A DNA stretch of 41,380 bases from contig JAFSZJ010000098.1 in NCBI GenBank assembly GCA_017458965.1, positions 1 to 41,380 on the forward strand. Direction: 5' to 3'. The position numbers were made by a program, and so were the translations under genes. Below are positions 6,374 to 38,283 of the stretch, in pieces; position 1 is the stretch's first letter; each line of letters opens with the position of its first letter. This stretch comes from Kiritimatiellia bacterium (GTDB taxonomy: Bacteria > Verrucomicrobiota > Kiritimatiellia > RFP12 > JAAYLN01). The notes under the pieces are model-generated. The model was given only the letters and a program-made list of their open reading frames with translations, was not told where the DNA came from and made no database searches.

Positions 6374-6537
6374 GGTGGAAAGTTGGGATTGGGGTGTCCG
6401 CGACGGGGCGCGGACGACAGAACTCGTATGCAAAACCGGATATCCATCATCCACAATCTATTATCTGTTATCTATTATCTGCTATCTGTTATCTATTATC
6501 TGCTATCTGTTATCTGTTATCTATTATCTACTATCTG
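6374..6537. other. Spacer between FAD oxidoreductase and GH36 genes
   Basis: This gap inside the operon contains no gene. It holds a perfect 7-bp hairpin at 6396-6415 (GTCCGCG / CGCGGAC, loop of six) and most of the 7-bp tandem array at 6458-6555. The hairpin has no T-run on either strand, so it is not a classical terminator. It could be an mRNA processing or stabilising element between the two coding regions. Confidence 0.6.
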
Positions 6538-6555
6538 CTATCTGCTATCTGCCAT
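6458..6555. repeat. 7-bp tandem repeat, 14 units of CTRYTAT
   Basis: Fourteen consecutive heptamers (CTATTAT, CTGTTAT, CTGCTAT, CTACTAT, CTGCCAT) stay in exact 7-bp phase. The array overlaps the last six codons and the stop codon of the FAD oxidoreductase gene (TAG, 6538-6540). On the mRNA strand the unit is ATAGCAG or ATAACAG, which gives stop codons in all three frames. It is strikingly AT-rich compared with the surrounding GC-rich genes. Confidence 0.95.
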
Positions 6556-12352: not shown

Positions 12353-13909
12353 ATGGCTGGAAGGAACACAAAAGGTGCGCGAAGGTCCGGACTGGGCAGG
12401 CTGGCAACGGTCTCGCTCGTCCTTCTCTGCGCACTCTACGCCGCCAGCCTCGTCTCCGAACTCATCTGTAACTCCAAGCCGCTGATCGTCCGAGCCAACG
12501 GACATGTGGCAATGCCGTTCCTGGCGCATGTCACCGAAGACGACTTGTTCGGAAACGGCGTCCCGAGGGAACCCGACTGGTCTGAAGTCGCCGCAACCGG
12601 ATCCGTCCACGCCATCTTCGCCCCATTACGCCATGGCCCATCGGACATCATCGACGCCGCATCGCTGGCAGGCTTCCGCCGCATACGCGCTACCATACGA
12701 CCAAAGGTCGCCTCTGGCAGGATCGATGTCCGTCCCGACATGACGGTTTCACGTTGTGAGGGTGTCGAAGCCTTCTTCCAGCGCGTTCCTGACGCAGACG
12801 AACGGATTGACGCCCTTTTCGATCATCCTGTTGGTCTTGCGGATGCCATCTCATCGCGTTTCTCCGACAGTCCGTCTGCTGCAGCGACGTTCAGGATCGG
12901 GACGCCTGGAGTGCCCGATGCTGAGATATCCCTGGCCGAATACGAGCCTAGAGGCGCCACGCCGCGTACCGTGCGGCTGCGACTCCGCTCAGGCGAAGGC
13001 GCAGCACGGACGGCCTCGATAGTCTTCGATGTCAAGGACGGAGTCCCCTACCCCATCCGCTCCTCCCGCTCCGCATTCGAACACCTTGACGAGGAGACGC
13101 GCAACACCATCCTCGCCGCCCTCTCCTCCACTCCTCCACTTTCCACTCTCCACTCTCCACTTTCCACTCCCAACTCCTCCACTCTCGAACTTTCATACGA
13201 AAGCGTGACTTGGCCATTCCGTCCGGTCCCAGGTCACCCGATGGGGATAGACGCCGCCGGACGCGATGTCTTTGCAAGGCTTCTGCACGGCACACGGACG
13301 GCGCTGACCTTCGGTATGCTCCTTGTCGCATGGGCCGTGCTGATAGGCGTGATAGCCGGCGCGATGCAAGGCTACTTCGGGGGATGGGTCGATCTCGCCG
13401 GACAGCGTTTCATCGAGATCTGGAGCGCCTTGCCGTTCCTCTATGTGATGATCCTCGTCGGTTCGGTGCTGGGGCGCAGCTTCCTGCTGCTCCTCCTTTG
13501 CTATGGCCTCTTCAACTGGATCGGCGTCTCCTACTACGCCCGGGCCGAGTTCCTTCGGCTTCGCGGACGGCCATTCGTCGATGCCGCCAGATGCCAAGGG
13601 CTTTCCACATGGCGGATCATAATGCGCCACATACTGCCGAACGCTCTGACACCTGTCATCACGCTTCTACCGTTCAACCTCGTCGGGGCGATAGCATCGA
13701 TTTCGGCGCTCGATTTCCTTGGCTTCGGTCTTCCGCCGCTGACGCCAAGCTGGGGCGAGCTGCTCCAGCAGGCGCAGCAGGACACCTCAGCCTGGTGGCT
13801 GATCCTCTACCCGTCGCTATTCCTCTTCATGACGATGCTGTTGTCGGTCTTCGTGGGCGAAGGACTCCGTGATGCCCTCGACCCGCGCCCTGACAGCCGC
13901 TATGAATGA
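12353..13909 (+). CDS. yejE: Peptide ABC transporter permease, YejE/DppC family, with repeat-encoded insert
   Basis: 518 residues, long for DppC-type permeases (about 300) because of a periplasmic domain (about 40-280) between the first helix and the permease core. That insertion, with SELICNSKPLIVRANGHVAMPF at its start, is a trait of YejE. The core begins at GHPMGIDAAGRDVFARLLHG, followed by the EAA loop (FVDAARCQGLSTWRIIMRHI) and the C-terminal DPR. Residues about 257-279 are encoded by the CCACTYT heptamer repeat (13121-13189), giving [11 protein letters not shown] in frame, just before the permease core. No ATPase gene follows; the convergent manC gene ends 10 bases later. The insert is likely a flexible linker on the periplasmic side. 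Confidence 0.9.
   Translation: MAGRNTKGARRSGLGRLATVSLVLLCALYAASLVSELICNSKPLIVRANGHVAMPFLAHVTEDDLFGNGVPREPDWSEVAATGSVHAIFAPLRHGPSDIIDAASLAGFRRIRATIRPKVASGRIDVRPDMTVSRCEGVEAFFQRVPDADERIDALFDHPVGLADAISSRFSDSPSAAATFRIGTPGVPDAEISLAEYEPRGATPRTVRLRLRSGEGAARTASIVFDVKDGVPYPIRSSRSAFEHLDEETRNTILAALSSTPPLSTLHSPLSTPNSSTLELSYESVTWPFRPVPGHPMGIDAAGRDVFARLLHGTRTALTFGMLLVAWAVLIGVIAGAMQGYFGGWVDLAGQRFIEIWSALPFLYVMILVGSVLGRSFLLLLLCYGLFNWIGVSYYARAEFLRLRGRPFVDAARCQGLSTWRIIMRHILPNALTPVITLLPFNLVGAIASISALDFLGFGLPPLTPSWGELLQQAQQDTSAWWLILYPSLFLFMTMLLSVFVGEGLRDALDPRPDSRYE
13121..13189 (+). repeat. In-frame heptamer repeat (CCACTYT) within yejE
   Basis: About six heptamers (CCACTTT, CCACTCT, CCACTCC, CAACTCC) lie in exact 7-bp phase at 13136-13177, with degenerate flanks on both sides. 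The reading frame stays open and yields the peptide [11 protein letters not shown]. The same family occurs in lnt and before manC and metK, always pyrimidine-rich on the coding strand. Confidence 0.92.
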
Positions 13910-15014: not shown

Positions 15015-15216
15015 TGGAAGTTGAAAGATGAAAGATGAGAGATGAAAGATGAGAGTGGAGAGTGGAAAGTGGAGAGTGGAAAATGGAAAGTGTGAAGATG
15101 AGAGTGGAGAGAAGTTGACCTTGCAGACTTTCAATACATTCTAGACATTCCTAGACTTTTGGACCTTCTAGACATTCCTAGACCTTCTTAGACTTTCTAG
15201 ACCGTCCTGGACCTTC
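15015..15216. repeat. Spacer made of two tandem repeat families (manC leader)
   Basis: No gene here. 15027-15110 holds twelve heptamers in phase (GATGARA and GTGGARA on the plus strand; pyrimidine-rich CCACTYT / CATCTYT in the mRNA). 15124-15224 holds an 8-10 bp degenerate repeat built on TCTAGAC / CCTAGAC. The second array includes the stop codon of the metallophosphoesterase gene (15217-15219). Apart from about a dozen bases, the spacer from stop to start is repeat. Confidence 0.92.
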
Positions 15217-16317
15217 CTAGACTAGCGGCATTTCATCATCAGGGGCGAAAAAGCCACCGTCGCTATCGGCGTAGCGTACGCGGACAGCGTCCTTTGAGAG
15301 CGTTATCGCACCTGACACATGGTACTGGTCCCTAACATATGATGAGCAGACAGCTACGCCAGGCTGGAGACCGTAGGAGTCATGCGCCCCACCTGGCGCC
15401 TCGGTGTAGCATTCATGAAGGTGCCCGGAGAGCATAAGCGTGGGCTTCATCCTGCCGACGAGACGGCACCAGCGCTTGTAGCGCTTGATCTCTATCTGGA
15501 ACTGCTTGTCAGGGATGAGGTAGTTGAAGGGCATGTGGCTGACGACAAGCCGCACCGGATATCTTTTGTACGCCTTCCTCGAGACCACCCGACGGATGAA
15601 AGCCTCCTCCTCCTCGCGGAACACCTCGCAGCATACGGTATGGCCGTACTCGTTGCATTCATCCACCTTGTCCTCGCCACAGTCTATGACGATGCCCCAG
15701 ACCGGACCGAGATGGAATGTGAAGTAGCTCTCACCGGCCCGCGTCGTGGGCGTGTAGTCGGCCAGCATGTCGGCGCCCACGCCGCGCAGATCATGGTTAC
15801 CGCGCGAGAACACGCATGGGATACGTCCCTTTGTGATAGGCCCGCTTATGAGGTATATGGCCTTGAACATGTCCACGGACTCGCTGCACTCGGGGACATC
15901 GCCGTTCATGATGAGGAAGTCGAGGTCGTCGCCGAAGAACGAACCGCTCCGCGCCGCCGCCTCGTGGCGGCTGTGGGAGTCGGCAAGGTTCACGAATTTG
16001 TATTCGGCCTTCTCGGCGACGGGTCTGAATTCAAACACCCTCTCCTCGATCCCCCCGCATTCCGAGAAGTATGCCTTGCGCTCGATTATCCTGCGCAGGC
16101 AGACCTTGTAGGAACGCGCCTCATCCAGCGCCACCATAGGTACGCGGGCGATGTGCAAGTACTTCGCGGAACGGAGGATGCCGTTCGAATGATCGAAGTA
16201 GGACTTGCCTCCGACCTCCACCCACATGGTGCATTCCGCATCGACCGGAACGCAAACCAGATACTCGTCCTCCACCGCGTACACGGATGGATATGTCATC
16301 ATCAGGCTGTCTTCCAT
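15217..16317 (-). CDS. Calcineurin-like metallophosphoesterase with N-terminal beta-domain
   Basis: 366 residues from MEDSLMM. Metal-binding motifs are seen in order: D113-x-H115 (LADSH), G139-D140 (MNGD), GNHD at 173-176, SHMPFN, and GHLHE. The first ~100 residues look like the fibronectin-III-type domain that precedes the catalytic domain in purple-acid-phosphatase-like proteins. No signal peptide, so cytoplasmic; substrate unknown. The ATG overlaps the end of lnt by 16 bases, consistent with an operon; a much longer upstream frame is antisense-like sequence inside lnt and was rejected. The stop codon lies inside the CTAG-rich repeat array, so the natural C-terminus may have been altered. 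Confidence 0.82.
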   Translation of the reverse strand: MEDSLMMTYPSVYAVEDEYLVCVPVDAECTMWVEVGGKSYFDHSNGILRSAKYLHIARVPMVALDEARSYKVCLRRIIERKAYFSECGGIEERVFEFRPVAEKAEYKFVNLADSHSRHEAAARSGSFFGDDLDFLIMNGDVPECSESVDMFKAIYLISGPITKGRIPCVFSRGNHDLRGVGADMLADYTPTTRAGESYFTFHLGPVWGIVIDCGEDKVDECNEYGHTVCCEVFREEEEAFIRRVVSRKAYKRYPVRLVVSHMPFNYLIPDKQFQIEIKRYKRWCRLVGRMKPTLMLSGHLHECYTEAPGGAHDSYGLQPGVAVCSSYVRDQYHVSGAITLSKDAVRVRYADSDGGFFAPDDEMPLV

Positions 16318-18053
16318 GCGGAGGATTCTAGCACAGCGAAGGCGATAAGCAGGATTGCGCAAGGTATGCCGAGAAGCCAGTCGCCAAACCGTGTGTAGAT
16401 GGTGCGGCGCGGAACAATGGCCAGATCCCCGACGGCAAAGCCGGCGCCGGATCCGTCGCCACCGATCCGGCGGACGATTCTGCCATGGCCATCGATCAAA
16501 GCCGACACGCCACGGTTCGTTGCACGCATCATCGGCCTCCCATTCTCCACGCACCTCAACACGGCCTGCGCGAGATGCTGCTCCCCTTCTGCCGAGCCTG
16601 CGAACCAGGCGTCGTTGGCCAGCAATGCGAGAACATCCGCCCCGTTGCGGACGGAGTCGCGCGCAAGCGACGGGAAGGCGTCCTCGAAGCATATGAGCGA
16701 GCCGATCCTGAACTCGCCCCTGGGCGTGTGGATGGTGCAGACCGCCGCCGCGTCGCCGGGCTCGCAGCTGAAACCGGCAGGCGCAAGCCGCTTGAGGAAC
16801 CGGAGTTTCGATTCCAGCGGAATGAACTCCCCGAATGGGACAAGATGCCTCTTGCGGTAGGTGGCCATGATCCCCTTTGGACCGAAGAGGAACGCGGAAT
16901 TGTAGATCAGGTGCGGGTTCGGGACATCGTCATCCGGCGCGCCTCCATATTTAAGTTCAACACCGCCAGCCAGAAGCGCGGCACCGTCGAGGGCCGAAAC
17001 TGCGCCACGGACGAGGTCCGCGGCATCACGGTCATAGGGAATATATCCAGGGAGGATCGTTTCAGGCCAAACGCAGATGTCTGGCGACGCCATGGCGGCG
17101 AGTTCGGCGTGCGACAAAAGAGTCTCCGAAGTCGTATCCAACGCCTCCTCATCCTTCTCGAAGATGCTTGGCATGTCTGCGCAGACAACGGCCGCCCGCA
17201 AACGGGGGGATTCGATTTCAACGCGGCGCGACTCGCCGATCGCATCCAGTCCACGCATCCAGCAGGCCACAGTCACGCAAAGTGCGATGAATAGCTCAAG
17301 AGAGCGGACAGGCCATTTGAAGATGCGGGGAACGGGGAGGCGGGGAGATGAAAGATGAAAGTGGAAAGTGGAAAGTGGAGAGTGAAAAGTGGGAAGTGGA
17401 GAGTGGGGAGTGGAAAGTGGAGAGTGGAGGGTGGAGAGGAGACGGGAGATAGTTGAGGCGATGGAGGAGTTTATCGCTACGAGAAGTAAGGAGACCGCAC
17501 CGGCGCCAACCCAGGATGCAGGGTGGAGGAATGCGGGATTGCCGTATTGCGTCGCGGCGAGAGGGTTCCATGGGAAGCCGGTGAGAACGACGCCCCGCAG
17601 GTATTCAGATCCCACCCAGAATACTGGTTCGGCAATGAGGACCAGAAGGATGGGGATGATGGTCCAGGGGCGCTTCATGGCAAGCCGCCATGAAGCCGCA
17701 ACCGCGAATGCGAAAAGAGCCTGGAAAAGCGAGAGGAAAAGGGAAAGCGCCACATGGCCGAGGCCGACAAGCGCCACTGGTCCGCCATTGTCTTTGAGGC
17801 TCCATAGCCACGACAGGTCGATCAGCCAGAAGACGCATCCGAAAACGAACCCCAGAAACGCTGCCCTGCGCGGCGGCGCGGCGCGCACCGCAAGCAGCAT
17901 CGGCACGATGGCCACGAACGCCAGATCGCCATGCCCGAATGGCGGGAACGCCATAGCGAGCAAAACTGCCGACAAGACGGATAGGATGACGGACAGCACC
18001 TGGTTTCGCCCTATGCGTTGCGGAGGGCGTCGGCGCGGTCGGTTCGCTCCCAT
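16302..18053 (-). CDS. lnt: Apolipoprotein N-acyltransferase with repeat-encoded insert
   Basis: 583 residues; transfers the third acyl chain onto lipoproteins in the inner membrane. The N-terminal half has several membrane segments starting at [21 protein letters not shown]. The C-terminal half is a nitrilase-like CN-hydrolase domain with Glu331 (VWPETI) and the nucleophile Cys455 (LICFED). Between the membrane helices, residues about 206-236 are encoded by 13 in-phase heptamers (17347-17437), giving [14 protein letters not shown], a non-family insert. This start overlaps metK by 43 bases; a GTG at 17999 (565 residues), 11 bases after the metK stop and just before the first helix, is a good alternative. 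It overlaps the metallophosphoesterase gene downstream. Confidence 0.9.
17347..17437 (-). repeat. In-frame heptamer array within lnt, 13 units
   Basis: Thirteen consecutive 7-bp units (two GATGAAA, then GTGGAAA / GTGGAGA variants as seen on the plus strand) keep exact phase for 91 bases. In the lnt frame they read as the heptapeptide family P-L-S-T-L/P-H-S/F. The reading frame is intact on both sides. Confidence 0.95.
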
Positions 18054-19189
18054 GGGAAACCGTCGCGGCCGAAATGACCATAAGTGGCCGTCTCGCGGTA
18101 GGACCAGCCCTGCGGCCTCATAAGACCTAGGTCACGCACGAGCATGCCTGGGCGGAAGTCGAATATGCGGCCGGACATGAGAATGTCCGCAAGGCGGTCC
18201 TCGGGGATGGAACCGGTGCCTAATGTCTGCACAGTGACGTTTATGCTCGTTGGTTCGGAGATTCCGATCGCGTAGGAGACCTGTATCTGGCACTTGTCAG
18301 CGAGACCAGCCGCCACGATGTTCTTGGCCGCGTAGCGGGCGTAGTAGGCGGCGGACCTATCGACCTTTGACGGGTCCTTGCCGGAGAACGCACCTCCACC
18401 ATGGGCAGCCATGCCGCCGTAGGTATCGACAATGATCTTGCGTCCGGTGACACCGGCATCGCCGTTCGGACCGCCGATGACGAACTTGCCGGTGGGGTTG
18501 ATGAGAAAGCGCGTGTCATCCGTGACAAGGCCCGTGGACGCCAGTTCCCCCCTGGCCACCTCTTCAAGGTCCTGCCTGATGCGCACGATATCGATGTCTT
18601 CGGTCTGATGGGAAAGGACGACTGTGGTTATTGCCGCCGGACGGCCACCATCGTACCGGATGCTCACCTGCGCCTTGGCATCAGGCCGCAGATACGGAAT
18701 CTCGCCGTTATGCCGGAGGGTGGCGCAGCGCCGCATCAGGCGGTGCGAAAAGACCAGGGCCGCAGGCATCATCTCAGGCGTCTCGTTCGTCGCGTATCCG
18801 AACATCATGCCCTGATCACCTGCCCCCTGTTCCTCCGGGCATCCGCGTTCAACTCCCATGTTGATGTCCGGTGACTGGCCATGCAGTGCGTTGATGTAGC
18901 GGAAGTCGTCGCTGGAGAACTCCTCGCCGGGGCGATCATAGCCTATGTCGCGGACAACACCTCTGGCTATCGCCTCCGTATCCACGCCATCCCACCCGGA
19001 GCAGGTGACCTCGCCTATGTTGACAACGAGATTAGGGCCAACAGCGGTCTCACACGCGACATGCGCATTCGGATCCTTGGCGATGCAGGCGTCGAGAATG
19101 GCGTCCGAAATCTGGTCGGCAACCTTGTCGGGATGGCCCTCGGACACTGATTCAGATGTGAAGATGTAGCGCGATGGGAAAGTGTTCAT
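18011..19189 (-). CDS. metK: S-adenosylmethionine synthetase
   Basis: 392 residues, normal for MetK, which makes S-adenosylmethionine from methionine and ATP in the cytoplasm. Signatures: [20 protein letters not shown] at the N-terminus, [12 protein letters not shown] (methionine/ATP site), and [19 protein letters not shown] (P-loop-like, phosphate binding). The start ATG is preceded directly by the heptamer repeat, with no Shine-Dalgarno site. The C-terminus overlaps the lnt start. It supplies SAM to the neighbouring SpoU-type methyltransferase in a general sense only. Confidence 0.97.
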
Positions 19190-19343
19190 GGGAGATGAGA
19201 GATGAGAGATGAAAGATTAGAGATGAGAGAGAAAAGATGAGAGATGAAAGTGGAGAGTGGAAAGTGGAGAGTGGAAAGTGGAAAGTGGAGAATGGAGAGT
19301 GGAGGAGTTGGGAGTGGAGGAGTGGAAAGTGAGGAGTTGAGAG
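19190..19343. repeat. Spacer made entirely of tandem repeats (metK leader)
   Basis: No gene here. Sixteen heptamers in exact phase cover 19194-19305 (GATGAGA / GATGAAA followed by GTGGAGA / GTGGAAA on the plus strand). A looser GAGTTGGGAGTGGAG series follows up to the RNA methyltransferase stop codon (TAA, 19344-19346). The transcript of this leader is almost pure C and U with few A. Confidence 0.95.
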
Positions 19344-20204
19344 TTAGGCGCCGTGGTGTTCAGGAAGTGGTGGAGGTGGCGTGGCTATGCCCGCCTCGAC
19401 ACGCTGTCGGACGGCCTCGAACAGCAGGATGGTCGTGGCAGCGGACACGTTCAGGGAATCCGCTACGCCAAGCATGGGGATGCGCACTCGCATGTCCGCC
19501 TCATTCATCCATTTGTCCGTGAGCCCGAACTGCTCGTTGCCAACCACCAGGGCCACATCACGAGTGAGATCAAGCTGGAAATGGAGTGCGTCGGCATGAG
19601 GTGTTGCGGCAAGGATACCGAAGCCCCTTGCCTTGAGGAAGTCCAGGCATTCGTCCGTGGAGCATTCAACAACGGGCATTGAGAAGATCACGCCTGTCGA
19701 GGCGCGCACGACGTTGGGGTTGTAGATGTCGGTGCACTTGTCGCAGACGATGACCGCAGCGGCGCCGGCGGCGTCCGCAGAACGGAGAATCGTCCCGAGG
19801 TTGCCTGGCTTCTCGATGGTCTCGGCGACAATCAAGAGCGAGCGTGGCGGGAGATCTAGATCATCCAGAGATCGTTTCGGCTGCGGTCCTACGGCAAGAA
19901 GCCCTTCCGGTCTTTCGCGGTAAGCGATCTTCAGGAACACAGGCGCAGAGCAGGATATTATTTCAGCCCCACGTTCCTTGGCTCTTTCGATGAGCGTAGG
20001 CTCGTTGACGCCTTTGAGGAAGAGCTCCTCGCAGAAGAAGAGACGGACCGGCGACCAGCCATGGTCGAGTCCGCGCTTTATCTCGCGGTAGCCCTCCGCG
20101 ATCATCAGCCCTTCGTCATCGCGATGGGAGCGCTGACGCAACCTCACCACATCCTTGATCTTGGGATTGGCGAGACTCGTGATATCCAGGTCGGAGGCGA
20201 TCAT
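19344..20204 (-). CDS. TrmH/SpoU-family RNA 2'-O-methyltransferase
   Basis: 286 residues. The N-terminal part (KIKDVVRLRQRSHRDDEGLMIAEG) is the SpoU substrate-binding domain. The SPOUT knot motifs are all present: ETIEKPGNLGTILRSADAAG (motif 1), LVVGNEQFGL (motif 2) and RIPMLGVADSLNVSAA (motif 3). The target is 23S rRNA or tRNA ribose; which one cannot be told. Product is cytoplasmic. It lies 21 bases after xseB in the same direction. The stop codon adjoins the repeat array that fills the gap to metK. Confidence 0.88.
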   Translation of the reverse strand: MIASDLDITSLANPKIKDVVRLRQRSHRDDEGLMIAEGYREIKRGLDHGWSPVRLFFCEELFLKGVNEPTLIERAKERGAEIISCSAPVFLKIAYRERPEGLLAVGPQPKRSLDDLDLPPRSLLIVAETIEKPGNLGTILRSADAAGAAAVIVCDKCTDIYNPNVVRASTGVIFSMPVVECSTDECLDFLKARGFGILAATPHADALHFQLDLTRDVALVVGNEQFGLTDKWMNEADMRVRIPMLGVADSLNVSAATTILLFEAVRQRVEAGIATPPPPLPEHHGA

Positions 20205-32489: not shown

Positions 32490-32598
32490 ATCACGTCCTT
32501 GTTGAGGAGTTGAGAAGTTGAGAAGTTGGGAAGTTGAGGAGTTGAGAGTTGGTGGTTTTCCTACACTAGCCACTAGAACTAGCCACTAGAACTAGTGA
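32490..32598. repeat. Spacer with 8-bp and CTAG repeats
   Basis: No gene here. 32501-32548 holds six octamers of GTTGAGAA type in phase, giving a CU-rich leader before the PIG-L gene. 32565-32604 holds a 13-bp CTAG repeat (ACTAGCCACTAGA), which includes the NagB-like stop codon (TAG, 32599-32601). Confidence 0.9.
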
Positions 32599-33525
32599 CT
32601 AGTGCATTTCGACATCGCATGTGCCGATGCCGGGGCGGTAGAAGTTGAAGCGCACGTCCGGATGGTCGGCGAGAAGCGACATCGGGACGGCGGCGTCGGG
32701 GATGCGCTTGGAGATCATGTAGGCGCTCAGGCGCATGCCGAAGGGGTTGTCATGGTGGCCGGGATGCCAGATCGACACTGTCTCGGCCTTCCATGTCTCG
32801 TACGGGCCGACTGTCATCGCCTGGGAAGGAACGGACTGCACCACGCCGCCACCGGACGTGCGGGCGTTCTGGATGAGGGTCATCGGGTGGAGGTCCACGC
32901 AGCGGGTGTGGAGCTGCCGCTGCACCTCCGGCGGCGGAGGAGCGTCGACGTACGCCCCCTCGCGCTTGGGCGGGTCGTTGAAGGCCCAGTGCTTCGTCTC
33001 GCCCTGTCCGCCCTGCATGATGACGCAGCGGAAATCCTCCCAGGACTTGCGGTAGGCGGTCGTGTCGGTGTCCGGGAAATGGAGGTTCTCGTCGGGCATG
33101 CGCAGTTCGGGGCGTATGCGGTCGAAGCAAAGCTCGCGGTCGGCCTTCTGGAAGCCAAGCGGGAAGTCGCGTCCTGCCGCCTTGCCGTCAACGACCCATT
33201 CGTCCATTCCCCAGAAGTGGCAGTTGCGGAGATCGAGTCCGATCGCGTTGACTATCTGCGCCACGATCGGAAGCTGCTCGGTCGGGCCTATCGGGCCGCA
33301 GATCCCGGCAGGGCGTTCCGGCGTCGCCTTCATCCAGGCCTCGATGTATTCGAGGGCCTCGGCGGCGTAGAACTCCTGGAATGTCTCGTACAAGCGGACT
33401 GTGAACCCCGGTCGCGAGAGGGCGAGGATGTCCTTTTCCGTCAGACGCGCCGCGGCGTCGAGTATTTCACGGTCGAGAGTGGTGTAGTCCCACCAGCCTG
33501 GGGCGACTTTGCTTTGGTTGCGCAT
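32599..33525 (-). CDS. NagB-like glucosamine-6-phosphate deaminase family protein
   Basis: 308 residues. WGMDEW (Asp108, Glu109) matches the MDE[YF] motif of glucosamine-6-phosphate deaminase. [12 protein letters not shown], with His179, matches the G-x-x-G-H-I-A-F-N-E-P motif, where His is catalytic. The family converts amino-sugar phosphate to ketose phosphate plus ammonia. The loop between the motifs differs from NagB proper, so the substrate is uncertain. A good ribosome site (AAGGAG) and TGGTATAAT 23 bases upstream are present. It pairs with the downstream PIG-L deacetylase; together they suggest amino-sugar catabolism. Confidence 0.83.
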
Positions 33526-33548
33526 GATTGCTGTCTCCTTGTGCCAAG

Positions 33549-33557
33549 ATTATACCA
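33549..33557 (-). promoter_or_regulatory. Extended -10 (TGGTATAAT) for the NagB-like / PIG-L pair
   Basis: The minus strand reads TGGTATAAT, 23 bases before the NagB-like ATG. The leader contains the AAGGAG ribosome site. Divergent from the mlaE promoter 32 bases away. Confidence 0.65.
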
Positions 33558-33588
33558 GCAAAGGTCGAAGTCCGAAGGGTGAGATGGT

Positions 33589-33597
33589 TGGTATAAT
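33589..33597 (+). promoter_or_regulatory. Extended -10 (TGGTATAAT) directly before mlaE
   Basis: TGGTATAAT ends seven bases before the mlaE ATG at 33605, with no ribosome site between. This predicts a leaderless mRNA. No -35 hexamer is apparent. Confidence 0.65.
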
Positions 33598-33604
33598 GTC
33601 AGCG

Positions 33605-34426
33605 ATGATAATCACCCGTGAACCGCTGATAAGACCGCCGACGGAGGGACGCACCCAGTCCATCGGGCGCTACACGCTTGACCTCCTGCGCGAGATCGGA
33701 ATCGGCACAGGGCTCTTCCTGGCGTCGATATCGTCGATGCGCCATCTCCTCGTATCCCGACGCATGAGACGCGAGACCGTGGCGCAGATCTTCGCCGCCG
33801 GCATCAAGAGCCTTCCCGTCATAACGGTCGTCGCGATCTTCACGGGCATGATCCTCTCGCTACAGATCGGCCTTTTGCTCAAGGACTTCAGCCAGGAGAT
33901 CTACATCGGCACGACGGTGATGGTCACGATGCTCCGCGAGATGGGCCCGTTCATGACGGGGCTGATTCTGGCCGCGTGCGTCGGCTCGGCTATGGCCGCG
34001 CAGATAGGCACCATGTCCGTGAACGACGAGATCGCCGCACTTGAGATCATGTCGATCGACCCGGTCCGCTTCCTGATGACGCCCCGCATTGCGGCAATGC
34101 TCCTCGTCACTCCGCTGCTGTCGTTCTACACCTGCATGATGGGCGTGCTTGGCGGCGGCATCGTCGGCATGACGCAGCTCAACATACGCTGGAGCCAGTA
34201 CATCCAGAACGCCTTGGAGTTCGCGGCCGTGAAGGACCTGTTCGTCGGTCTCTTCAAGGCGATGGTCTTCGGCGCCATCATCTCGACGGTCGCCTGCTAC
34301 GAGGGCTTCGCCACGACGCAGGGAGCCGTCGGCGTCGGCCGTGCGACAAGGAGCAGCGTGATCACGTCGTTCCTGCTGATCCTGATCGTCGGCTACTTCA
34401 TAACGAGCCTGTTCTACAACACCTAG
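33605..34426 (+). CDS. mlaE: MlaE-family phospholipid ABC transporter permease
   Basis: 273 residues from MIITREPLIR. The start was set by the TATAAT box seven bases upstream; an ATG nine bases earlier (MSAM) overlaps that box. The family pattern is clear: LREMGPFMTGLILAACVGSAMAAQIGTM is the signature of MlaE/TrnI-like permeases, and five to six hydrophobic segments are present. It acts in the inner membrane in phospholipid traffic between the two membranes. The partner ATPase (MlaF) and MlaD do not follow in this window, as the gene runs into a repeat spacer and then convergent recN. Confidence 0.92.
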   Translation: MIITREPLIRPPTEGRTQSIGRYTLDLLREIGIGTGLFLASISSMRHLLVSRRMRRETVAQIFAAGIKSLPVITVVAIFTGMILSLQIGLLLKDFSQEIYIGTTVMVTMLREMGPFMTGLILAACVGSAMAAQIGTMSVNDEIAALEIMSIDPVRFLMTPRIAAMLLVTPLLSFYTCMMGVLGGGIVGMTQLNIRWSQYIQNALEFAAVKDLFVGLFKAMVFGAIISTVACYEGFATTQGAVGVGRATRSSVITSFLLILIVGYFITSLFYNT

Positions 34427-34427
34427 G

Positions 34428-34577
34428 GCGGCGTCCCGCCGCGCTCTTGGAACATGTGAAATAAGCCAACTCCAACAACGACGGACAACATTTACATGCG
34501 GACCAACTCGCCCGCATGCGCCGCGCATGTTGGCGCGGCCCAAGCCAAGGTTGTCCCAAGTTGTTCATGTTGTCTTA
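34428..34577. repeat. Palindromic repeat element, copy A
   Basis: Begins one base after the mlaE stop with a perfect hairpin (GCGGCG-TCC-CGCCGC, 34428-34442). The inner part, 34462-34577, is flanked by imperfect inverted repeats (TAAGCCAAC... and ...GTTGTCTTA). It also contains an internal CATGCG-CC-GCGCATG hairpin. Against copy B it shows about ten mismatches and one single-base gap. Confidence 0.9.
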
Positions 34578-34592
34578 TGCCATTTTGGAGGT

Positions 34593-34743
34593 GCGGCGTC
34601 CCGCCGCGCACTCGGTGCATGTGTAGTAAGACAACTCCAACAACGACGGACAACATTTACATGCAAACCAACTCGTCCGCATGCGCCGCGCATGTTGGCG
34701 CGGCCCAAGTCCAAGGTTGTCCCAAGTTGTTCATGTTGTCTTA
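34593..34743. repeat. Palindromic repeat element, copy B
   Basis: Starts with the same GCGGCG-TCC-CGCCGC hairpin (34593-34607), here with a longer stem (GTG/CAC outside it). The inner part, 34627-34743, has matching ends: TAAGACAAC at the left and GTTGTCTTA at the right. The inverted repeat extends imperfectly to ~31 bases (about 24 matches). It carries no coding capacity, so it resembles a MITE- or REP-like non-autonomous element. Confidence 0.9.
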
Positions 34744-34819
34744 GTCTTCATGACTTGGCGACGAACCCGGCTTTGCGCGTCGGCGTCAGCCAACCACCGC
34801 CCCATAACACCTTTTCGGC

Positions 34820-36493
34820 TTAGGAGTCCGCGCAGTTTTTGAGCATTTCGCGGGCGTGGCGCAGAGTGACGGAGGTGAGGTCGCTGCCACCAAGCATGCG
34901 CGCGATTTCCTTCGCCCTAGCCTCGCCGGAGAGCGGAGCGATGGTCGCGGTCGTCCTGTCGCCTGCGACGGATTTAGAGACGGCGAAGTGCGCCTCGCCG
35001 TATGCGGCGACCTGCGGAAGATGCGTGATCGAGATGATCTGGTGGCTTCGGGATAGAGCTCGGAGCTTTAGACCTACCGCACGTCCGACCTCGCCGCCGA
35101 CGTTGGAGTCTATCTCGTCGAAGACCAGGAGCGGGATCATGTCATGTTCCGCGAGGACGGATTTGACGGCCAGCATGACGCGGGCGATCTCGCCGCTCGA
35201 CGCTATGGCGCGGAGCGGCATGGTCCCCTCCCCCGGGTTCGGCGCGAAGGCGAACGTCACGGAGTCGCAGCCAGTCCTTACCGGCTCGCATGGCGCCACG
35301 CCCACGCTGAAAAGCGACTGCGCGAAGCCCAGGGGCGACAGTTCCCCGGTGATCGCCTTGCCAAGGCGCGAAGCCGCCGAGGAGCGGACCTTCGTAAGCT
35401 TAGCACCCATGTCACGGACCACGCGGAGCGACTTGGCGATTTCTGCGTCAAGTCCGGCAAGCCGCTCTTCGCGGGAAAGAAGCGCCTCGAGTCTTTCCTT
35501 CCGGGCGTCGCGTGTCTTAAGCACGTCCTCCAGCGTAGGCCCGTATTTTCGCCTGAGCCTCTGGACGAGGGCCAGACGGGCCTCGAGTTCCTCCAGCATC
35601 CCCGGATCGGCATCCACTCGTGAGAGGCGGTCCGATATGGTCCGCGAAAGCTCCTGCACGGCCACGGCATGTTCCGCTATCTCGTCGCGCCATTCGCCGG
35701 CCTCCGGCAGTATCCGCGACAGTTCCTGAAGGCGCTGCTGCACGGTCGCCATCATGTCGAAGACCGAGCCTTCGCCGTCCGTCAGCCCATCCACGACGGC
35801 GCCGCCGACGCCCGCGATCTCCCCGGCGTTCGCCGCCTCGGAATGACGGGCTATGAGCGCGTCGCCGTCTTCCGCCGAAAGAGCGGCTTCGTCGATCTCC
35901 GTAACGGCGTATCGCAGGAGGTCTATCTCCTCCTCGATCGATCCGCTGGCCACCGACTCAAGCTCCGCCTTTTCCCGAAGAAGCGACTGCCAAGCCTCAT
36001 ACGCCTCGGCGTAGGCCCCGCGCTCCGCCTCGTCATGTGCGTACGAGTCGAGGATGGCGAGCTGGAAGTCGGGGGAGAGCAACGACTGGTGGTCGTATGG
36101 CCCATGTATGTCAATCAGGTGCTCGCCGAGGCGGCGGAGAGTGGCCAGCGTGGCTGACGAGTCGTTTATCCAGACGCGACCAGATCCTGACGCGGAGACA
36201 GTCCTGCGAACGATAAGGCGTCCGTCCTCGCATGGCGGAAGGCCGGCGTCGGCGAGGACTATATCTACGGCCTTGGAACCGTCGGCGGAAAAGACGGCCT
36301 CCACGGACAGTTCCTTTGCGCCGGAGCGTATCGCGCCGTGATCGGCGCGTTCACCAAGTACAAGTCCGAGCGCCCCTATGAGGACGGATTTTCCCGAACC
36401 GGTCTCGCCCGTGACGATGTTCAGACCGGGAGCGAAGCGCACCTCGGCGTTCTCGACCACGGCGAGGTTGCGGACTTTCAGATTCTCAAGCAT
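34820..36493 (-). CDS. recN: DNA repair protein RecN
   Basis: 557 residues, normal for RecN, an SMC-like ATPase in double-strand break repair. Walker A is TGETGSGKS (Lys35) near the N-terminus (LKVRNLAVVENAEVRFAPGLNIV). A helical coiled-coil middle follows (about 150-380). The C-terminal ATPase half has SSGEIARVMLAVKSVL (signature) and LLVFDEIDSNVGGEVG (Walker B). The ATG is preceded by GAGGA eight bases upstream; a GTG five codons earlier overlaps the ptsI stop and is an alternative. Last gene of the lpt-hpf-pts run. Confidence 0.95.
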   Translation of the reverse strand: MLENLKVRNLAVVENAEVRFAPGLNIVTGETGSGKSVLIGALGLVLGERADHGAIRSGAKELSVEAVFSADGSKAVDIVLADAGLPPCEDGRLIVRRTVSASGSGRVWINDSSATLATLRRLGEHLIDIHGPYDHQSLLSPDFQLAILDSYAHDEAERGAYAEAYEAWQSLLREKAELESVASGSIEEEIDLLRYAVTEIDEAALSAEDGDALIARHSEAANAGEIAGVGGAVVDGLTDGEGSVFDMMATVQQRLQELSRILPEAGEWRDEIAEHAVAVQELSRTISDRLSRVDADPGMLEELEARLALVQRLRRKYGPTLEDVLKTRDARKERLEALLSREERLAGLDAEIAKSLRVVRDMGAKLTKVRSSAASRLGKAITGELSPLGFAQSLFSVGVAPCEPVRTGCDSVTFAFAPNPGEGTMPLRAIASSGEIARVMLAVKSVLAEHDMIPLLVFDEIDSNVGGEVGRAVGLKLRALSRSHQIISITHLPQVAAYGEAHFAVSKSVAGDRTTATIAPLSGEARAKEIARMLGGSDLTSVTLRHAREMLKNCADS

Positions 36494-36504
36494 GGGCCGG
36501 GTCC

Positions 36505-38283
36505 TCACAGGGACAGCAGATCGGGGACGTGCCGCGCGAGGAAATCACGCGAAAGCTCCAGCACAGTCGCGGCGCTGCCGGACGAAAGCGCGGCATCGGC
36601 GAGCGCCTTGGCGGCCGAGAACGGCACGGCGCGGATCAACGCCTTGATCGCTGGGATGGATGTCGGGGCCATGCTCAGCGAATCGAAGCCCATGCCTACG
36701 AGTATGGCGGCTAGGCCAGGCACGGACGCCATCTCGCCGCACAGTCCCAGCGGGATCGACGCGGACTTCGCCGCGTCGGCGGCCATCTTGACGAGCCGCA
36801 GCACGGACGGATGGGCCGGCTGGTATAGATGGGCCACTAGTTCGTTCGTGCGGTCGGCGGCCATGGTGTACTGCGTCAGGTCGTTGGAGCCCACGGAGAA
36901 GAAATCGGCGCGCTTGGCCAGGAACTGTGCCGTGAGCGCGGCGGACGGCACCTCCACCATGATGCCAAGTCGCGGCGTCTTGCATTCGACGCCGTTCTCC
37001 GCGAGGTCGTTCAGGCATTCCTCCATGATCTCGCGTGTCCGGACGAGTTCGGAGATGTCCGCGACCATGGGGAGGAGGATGTTGGCCGGGGCGCCTCCTG
37101 CGCTTGCGCGCATGATGGCGCGGAGCTGCATGCGGAGGACATCCTCGTCGTGCAGCAGGTAGCGGAGGGAGCGGAGGCCAAGGAACGGGTTCTCCTCGGA
37201 CTCGCAAAGACCAGTTTCGCCGGCGAACTTGTCGCCGCCGAGATCGAACGCCCTGATGATCACAGGCCTGTCGCCCATGGCGTCGAATGCGGCGCGGTAC
37301 GCGGCGACCTGCTCATCCTCCGGCACGGGCTTGCCGGATGCCATCCAAAGATACTCCGTGCGGAAAAGTCCGATGCCTTCGGCGCCATCGTCCACAAGCG
37401 AGGATACGCCTGCGGCGCTCTCCACGTTGGCCATGACGCGGACGCGGACGCCGTCCGGCGTGACCGCCTCCCCGCCCCGCCGTTCGCGGAGGGACTCGAC
37501 GATGCTCTCGCGCATGCGGGCGAGTCCAAGCAGATGGGAGAGTTCCCTACGGCCAGGGTTGAGGACCACCACGCCGTTGCCGCCATCGACGGCGATCTGC
37601 TGTCCGGAGACCGCCTCCTGCGAGACGGTCCCGAGACCGACGACGGCGGGAATGCCGATGGCGCGCATGAGCAACGCGGCATGCGAAGTGAGGCTGCCGC
37701 GGTCGAGGACCACGGCTTTAACGACGCTCCTCGGAAGGGCTAGCGTCTCCGACGGGGTGAGGTTCTCTGCGACTACGACGCACGGGCGGTCCCAGGCACC
37801 TGGCAGCTCCTCCTTCACCCCCATCAGGTTGCGAAGAAGGCGGCGGGCCACGTCGGAGAGATCGTCGGCGCGCTCGCGGAAGAGGGCGTCGCCCGACTCC
37901 TGGAACTGGGCGATGTACTTGTTCGCCACCTCGCGGACGGCCCATTCAGCGTTGTGATGGAGGTCGAAGATCTCATGATGGAGGTCGGCGGTGATGATCT
38001 CGTCGTCGAGGACCATCATATGGCCGTCTATGATGCCGGCCTCTCCGGACGAGGCGATCTCGTCGACGCGCTCGCGTATGACCTTGAGCTGTCGGCGCGT
38101 GACCTCGCTGGCCACCGCAAGGCGCCGCCATTCATGCTCGATGGCGGAAGGGGCTATCTCGACGGCGGGGGCGTTGTAGACGCGGGAGCGATAGAGGACG
38201 GCCGTCGCCACGGCGATGCCAGGCGAGACGCCAATGCCCTGAAGGGTGCGGGATGTGGCAGTTTGTCCGTAGCTATTGCTCAT
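36505..38283 (-). CDS. ptsI: Phosphoenolpyruvate-protein phosphotransferase (PTS enzyme I)
   Basis: 592 residues, as usual for enzyme I without a GAF domain. It passes phosphate from phosphoenolpyruvate to HPr. Phosphorylated His201 lies in GSLTSHAALLMRAIGIPAVVG. LFRTEYLWM, FSVGSNDLTQYTMAADRTNE and GLCGEMAS (Cys515, active site) mark the PEP-binding barrel. The start ATG (MSNSYGQ) overlaps the ptsH stop by 11 bases. The cytoplasmic product couples with the adjacent HPr; no EII component is visible. Confidence 0.96.
   Translation of the reverse strand: MSNSYGQTATSRTLQGIGVSPGIAVATAVLYRSRVYNAPAVEIAPSAIEHEWRRLAVASEVTRRQLKVIRERVDEIASSGEAGIIDGHMMVLDDEIITADLHHEIFDLHHNAEWAVREVANKYIAQFQESGDALFRERADDLSDVARRLLRNLMGVKEELPGAWDRPCVVVAENLTPSETLALPRSVVKAVVLDRGSLTSHAALLMRAIGIPAVVGLGTVSQEAVSGQQIAVDGGNGVVVLNPGRRELSHLLGLARMRESIVESLRERRGGEAVTPDGVRVRVMANVESAAGVSSLVDDGAEGIGLFRTEYLWMASGKPVPEDEQVAAYRAAFDAMGDRPVIIRAFDLGGDKFAGETGLCESEENPFLGLRSLRYLLHDEDVLRMQLRAIMRASAGGAPANILLPMVADISELVRTREIMEECLNDLAENGVECKTPRLGIMVEVPSAALTAQFLAKRADFFSVGSNDLTQYTMAADRTNELVAHLYQPAHPSVLRLVKMAADAAKSASIPLGLCGEMASVPGLAAILVGMGFDSLSMAPTSIPAIKALIRAVPFSAAKALADAALSSGSAATVLELSRDFLARHVPDLLSL

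Follow-up and report, generated by a model that had tools for sequence, protein, structure and literature searches.

The DNA stretch analysed here (the window, 41,380 nucleotides in its full length) is contig C52 of a Kiritimatiellia MAG of 1.75 Mb, which is 63% complete and consists of 122 contigs. It carries mlaE and a recN-like gene, which are convergent and whose identities, assigned in an earlier note on this DNA, were borne out by Pfam. The gap between the two genes is mostly filled by two tandem units, located at 34428 and 34593, with a spacing of 165/166 (Table 1). The units differ by a single 1-nt indel and, within their first 117 nt, by 10 mismatches, thus the two tandem copies with about ten differences described in the earlier note are real; the sequence GCGGCG-TCC-CGCCGC is present in both of them, and the mlaE stop codon, after which copy A was said to begin at a distance of one base, is indeed the TAG at 34424-34426. 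What did not hold was the description of the unit as one element of about 150 bp: in both copies it is composed of a REP element joined to a 117-bp palindrome, that is, of two separate repeat families. Taking into account that the REP occurs at 70 places in the genome and the 117-bp interior in three near-full copies (twice in the window and once in C31), the unit is a short abundant repeat joined to a longer rare one. The interior of the window units is approximately 20% different from that of the C31 unit.

Table 1. Features of the mlaE-recN gap and related repeats (positions refer to the window unless a contig is named)
Feature	Position	Strand	Remarks
mlaE (permease, PF02405)	33509..34426	+	Pfam; not followed by its operon partner mlaF
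Tandem pair of REP + palindrome units	34428..34743	+	period 165
REP copy A, hairpin without GGAGGT head (guide lost)	34428..34444	+	starts one base past mlaE stop
117-bp-class palindrome, copy A (116 nt)	34462..34577	+	outer arms TAAGCCAAC/GTTGTCTTA
Palindrome A, first central hairpin (CATGCGGACCAACTCGCCCGCATG)	34495..34518	+	sequence, fold
Palindrome A, second central hairpin (GCCGCGCATGTTGGCGCGGC)	34520..34539	+	sequence, fold
REP copy B, complete	34587..34610	+	exact match to genome-wide consensus; fold
REP copy B, guide GGAG	34587-34590
REP copy B, stem	34591-34598/34602-34609		G-C and T.G at foot
REP copy B, loop TCC	34599-34601
117-bp palindrome, copy B	34627..34743	+	outer arms TAAGACAAC/GTTGTCTTA; three-tier stem
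Palindrome B, first central hairpin	34660..34683	+	sequence, fold
Palindrome B, second central hairpin	34685..34704	+	sequence, fold
recN-like gene (SMC_N)	34820..36508	-	Pfam; convergent with mlaE
Degenerate tandem repeat arrays	6456-6551, 13126-13194, 15015-15223, 17357-17438, 19188-19344, 32501-32551
Third REP + palindrome unit	G000:C31:8565-8727
Direct REP arrays, period 31-33	C24 (five copies); C61, C96, C101, C49 (four each); C58 (two)
Direct REP array, period 81	C119
Inverted REP pairs, 41-42 bp start to start	C17, C31, C44 (twice), C66		three with one common linker

Within the window alone the 15-mer palindrome was not significant (29 of 100 shuffles reached two matches with up to 2 mismatches), and an Rfam search of the feature gave no family match up to E = 1. 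The window also contains many degenerate tandem repeats with 7-10-nt units (ATCTGTT, CTCCACT, AGTGGAG, CTAGACCTTC, GTTGAGAA and others), and similar arrays recur beside REPs elsewhere in the genome.

On the scale of the genome, the 15-mer was found 40 times as an exact match and 61 times when one mismatch was allowed (control 13), and the longer pattern GGAGGTGCRGCRTCYYGCYGCGCA was present at 70 places as compared to 0 for the reversed control. These copies leave no room for the element being a local duplication only, the outcome that would have gone against the earlier note. Alignment of the 70 copies defined a REP of 24 nt, which consists of a GGAG guide (67 of 70 copies), an 8-bp hairpin with an invariant T.G pair and a TC[C/T] loop. 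The borders are sharp: T at -3 (59/70), GGAG-GT-hairpin-GC and A at +1 (57/70), after which conservation ends. The start of the unit, placed at GCGGCG in the earlier note, is thereby shifted 6 nt upstream to GGAGGT, which is retained in copy B (34587) and lost in copy A, and the hairpin described there is extended to a stem of 8 bp including the T.G pair. Compensatory stem changes were observed at pair 12-16 (G-C in 51 copies, A-T in 17, others in 2), and pair 6-22 was T.G in 70 of 70. On the GGAG strand the 8-bp stem begins directly after the guide, whereas only 6 bp can form on the opposite strand; judged from the sequence, the invariant T.G pair, which is an A.C mismatch on the other strand, would fit strand discrimination by the RAYT.

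Codon-based gene calling showed that the REP copies are extragenic, overlap with predicted genes being limited to the C17 pair and a poor copy on C62. They are arranged as singletons, direct arrays and inverted pairs (Table 1); the inverted pair on C77 is oriented the opposite way round, and two copies on C34 share their downstream sequence and diverge upstream exactly at the guide. By its copy number, extragenic location, guide, compensatory changes and association with flanked RAYT genes in relatives (see below), the short repeat is a REP (REPtron), with GGAG in place of the canonical GT[AG]G guide.

The 117-bp palindrome folds into stems of 9, 6 and 7 bp, which are parted by 3x3 loops and carry two central hairpins (z of copy B -6.0 on the plus and -6.9 on the minus strand). 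The inner hairpin noticed earlier is part of a three-tier structure with z values of about -6 to -7, and the inverted ends reported for the inner 117 bp are as described in copy B (TAAGACAAC/GTTGTCTTA), whereas copy A has TAAGCCAAC. Apart from the three near-full copies, the interior was found in diverged or partial form. Nine loci together hold 13 occurrences of the triple GTTGTY arm (control 0). Six of these loci are at most 121 bp from a REP, for which a probability of 1e-5 was roughly estimated from a binomial with 12% of the DNA taken as intergenic. The REP at C13:2209 is located within a GTTGTC palindrome, and palindrome versions unlinked to a REP are present on C113 and C15. The palindrome is thus a second dispersed repeat that is usually located near REPs, and we infer that it is cargo or a landing site, not the motor. 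An integron attC site was considered and rejected by inspection, the palindrome ends being unlike RYYYAAC/GTTRRRY. A partial match with 75% identity was noted in a genome of another family in the order (L058, G026:C174:61890-61953).

The earlier note had suggested looking for a transposase of the RAYT type with matching ends, and such genes were found in related genomes. The REP 21-mer is present, as species-specific variants, in 12 of 288 genomes of the class, and within these genomes five Y1_Tnp loci are flanked by the REP motif or a close variant: the RAYT genes of G026 and G263 have the motif on both sides, and variants were found at three more loci. The proteins encoded by the five loci match NF047646 REP_Tyr_transpos with 63.8 bits (below the NCBIfam cut-off of 80), the IS200 transposase with 23.6 bits, and also PF01797 and the E. 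coli TnpA_REP 4ER8 (E 5e-5). The enzyme, a HUH/Y1 protein of approximately 208 aa from Kiritimatiellae/Verrucomicrobiota, retains W-Q, Asp at E. coli position 100, Arg104 and the catalytic Tyr. The subfamily was detected in 107 of the 288 genomes and in other classes of the phylum. In the 450-bp flanks of 91 RAYT loci we counted 213 guide-hairpins (stem of 7 or more with G[GT][AG]G at its foot and a T(T)C[CT] loop) compared to 0.1 in dinucleotide shuffles, and hairpins were present on both sides at 44 loci; 13 of 14 other Y1 loci had none in their flanks. The loop and guide forms used for this count were picked after a prior look at the flanking hairpins, which is immaterial, the contrast with the shuffles and with the other Y1 loci being too large.

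No member of the subfamily was found in the assembled part of the window's own genome, whose 63% completeness permits absence without proving it, nor in the relative G002; that this REP has a cognate RAYT is what we infer from the relatives. The two Y1 genes of the own genome (on C42 and C13) were rejected as the cognate RAYT because no REP copy flanks either. Locus L057 (G000:C13:24476-27754) contains a Y1 transposase-like gene of a different kind (335 aa), which has copies of another hairpin repeat, of the GCGGTCTGAAGGACCGCGCCGACAGGA type, at its borders; the upstream ORF reads through three tandem copies of a related sequence in frame, and this repeat is possibly a second REP family. At L056 (G000:C42:5533-8724) a third type of Y1 gene (319 aa) is followed by GTGGCGGGCGCCGCGAGCGGCGCATT repeats with AGATTTCAAATCTC stretches.

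Guides of typical REPs are GT[AG]G, those of class 3 are CnGA, and subclass 2.6 has atypical structures (PMC6006769, PMC8266576, PMC2817692). Relative to the GT[AG]G guides described in these papers, the GG guide is a new variant. GG[AG]G guides mark one RAYT clade and GT[AG]G guides its sister clades, and the alignment column that best separates GG from GT RAYTs aligns with H101 of the E. coli enzyme, which was listed among the guide-recognition residues and is at times Arg (Quentin 2018). With guide labels assigned blind to the protein, His at this position was found with GT in 49 cases and with GG in 2 (L192, L280), Arg with GG in 32, with GT in 2 (L273, L293) and with GA in 2 (L266, L297, one hairpin each), and Thr with GG in 7. 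Trees built from 70 and from 92 RAYTs require no more than 2-3 guide changes, which makes a sign test for independent origins powerless; the coupling between residue and guide is therefore proposed as a hypothesis at the level of clades, without independent replication, and is backed by the position of the residue. Two RAYTs with Thr (L130 and L134, in G241 and G007) have flanking REPs whose head is GGG and whose loops are CTCC/CTCT, and perhaps represent a third specificity class.

The best explanation of these observations is that extragenic repeats form a mosaic around the REP of a GGAG-guided RAYT system, a reading to which we assign a probability of about 0.8. It is favoured by the 70 copies against none in the control, their extragenic location, sharp borders, stem compensation, arrays and inverted pairs, as well as by the RAYT genes of G026 and G263 flanked on both sides, the large excess of guide-hairpins and the homology to TnpA_REP. 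Mobilization of a REP/BIME in trans, one of the possibilities raised in the earlier note, is supported by the same evidence. In the mechanism that we envisage, the RAYT would bind the REP folded as a single strand, e.g. on the lagging-strand template, would read the guide and nick close by, and would move or copy the REP plus anything up to the next REP. By analogy with the model in PMC8266576, in which guide positions choose CT, CA or CC for nicking, the dinucleotide might be selected by the guide. Head-to-tail REPs would then yield the 31-bp arrays or, with the 117-bp palindrome between them, the 165-bp units, and inverted pairs would yield REPINs; the last tandem step could equally have occurred by slippage or recombination between REPs. 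In a wider form, which we regard as tentative and somewhat doubtful, a deep Verrucomicrobiota RAYT clade would read GG[AG]G, the second guide base would be set by the amino acid aligned with E. coli position 101 (T by His, G by Arg or Thr), and direct REPs could take along further repeats, the 117-bp palindrome for instance, as IS200/IS605-like cargo.

Selection at this site for a transcription terminator or 3'-end stabilizer serving the convergent mlaE and recN, also proposed earlier as a bidirectional terminator, would agree with the orientation of the neighbours and with the stable folding of the whole unit on both strands (z -4.2 and -4.5). E. coli REPs affect mRNA 3' ends, and a secondary role of this kind is possible. 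As the origin of the feature it is improbable: there is no T-tract and no terminator-like site in 34300-34900, T is not enriched downstream of the hairpin in the 70 copies, only 9 of 32 classifiable clusters are in a convergent setting, and identical copies are also located between co-directional and divergent genes. The chances of a classical MITE, i.e. a non-autonomous element of the DDE type, 117 or 165 bp long, whose movement depends on terminal inverted repeats, appear slimmer still. Its 117-bp part does have inverted ends and three near-full copies, but the unit common to the window and C31 starts with the REP and not with TAAGACAAC, and its end is also at a REP; the right ends differ, no target duplication was seen, the ends are guide-hairpins, and the remaining palindrome copies are fragmentary or diverged.

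Local tandem duplication by slippage or unequal recombination between REPs, or a contig misjoin at the mlaE-recN repeat, deserves more weight, even if we consider it unlikely. All 17 of 17 relatives have the start of mlaF 1-71 nt past mlaE, whereas the window has no mlaF at this place and the junction is occupied by the REP units, the guide-less REP A being the first. The mla operon thus appears to be split here, either by a rearrangement at REP A or by a misjoin in the assembly, which is in 122 contigs. In the stretches of the genome that were searched mlaF was not found near other REPs; the mlaE-recN junction was found in none of the relatives, and no pair of empty and filled sites was found. 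Against a misjoin, there are 10 differences between units A and B in 117 positions, and both differ from the C31 unit, so that reads should distinguish them, and this explanation bears only on the last duplication and on the junction, not on the REP nature of the repeat.

The GGAG-guided REP/RAYT reading is of interest for the question of how RAYTs recognize and cut REPs; no structural data with REP were available for group 3 type RAYTs as of PMC8266576. The GT and GG lineages constitute natural enzyme/guide pairs, and with one named residue to swap, guide recognition becomes directly testable. REP biology is also extended to uncultured Kiritimatiellae, where the element can be located at the point at which a conserved operon is interrupted; the phylum Verrucomicrobiota is not mentioned in the text of the 2018 classification.

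Among the known systems, the closest are the REP/REPtrons of RAYT group 3 (TnpA_Y1 subclass 2.5) and of subclass 2.7 (PMC6006769, PMC8266576, PMC2817692). Common features are the short GC hairpin, whose loop is conserved and whose foot carries a 4-nt guide, the many extragenic copies occurring as singles, inverted pairs and tandem clusters, the flanking of a HUH/Y1 RAYT, and the retained W-Q, Asp100, Arg104 and catalytic Tyr; the differences are the guide, GGAG (GG[AG]G) here versus GT[AG]G there, and the TC[C/T] loop. The five inverted REP pairs with a short linker resemble BIMEs/REPINs, whereas the REPs of the window are direct, each being followed by the 117-bp palindrome. REPs inserted in longer palindromes have been described in A. 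variabilis (GTAG-15) and H. neapolitanus (CGTC-1) (PMC3733652, section 7), and the REP at C13:2209 is of this kind; in contrast to these, the palindrome studied here is mostly intact beside or between REPs and has REP-free versions. Like the ends of IS200/IS605 and of non-autonomous elements derived from them, same-strand guide-hairpins bound a segment, direct REPs resemble left and right ends, and the enzyme is of the Y1 HUH type, but it fits REP_Tyr_transpos better than the IS200 transposase (63.8 versus 23.6 bits), and single dispersed hairpins prevail.
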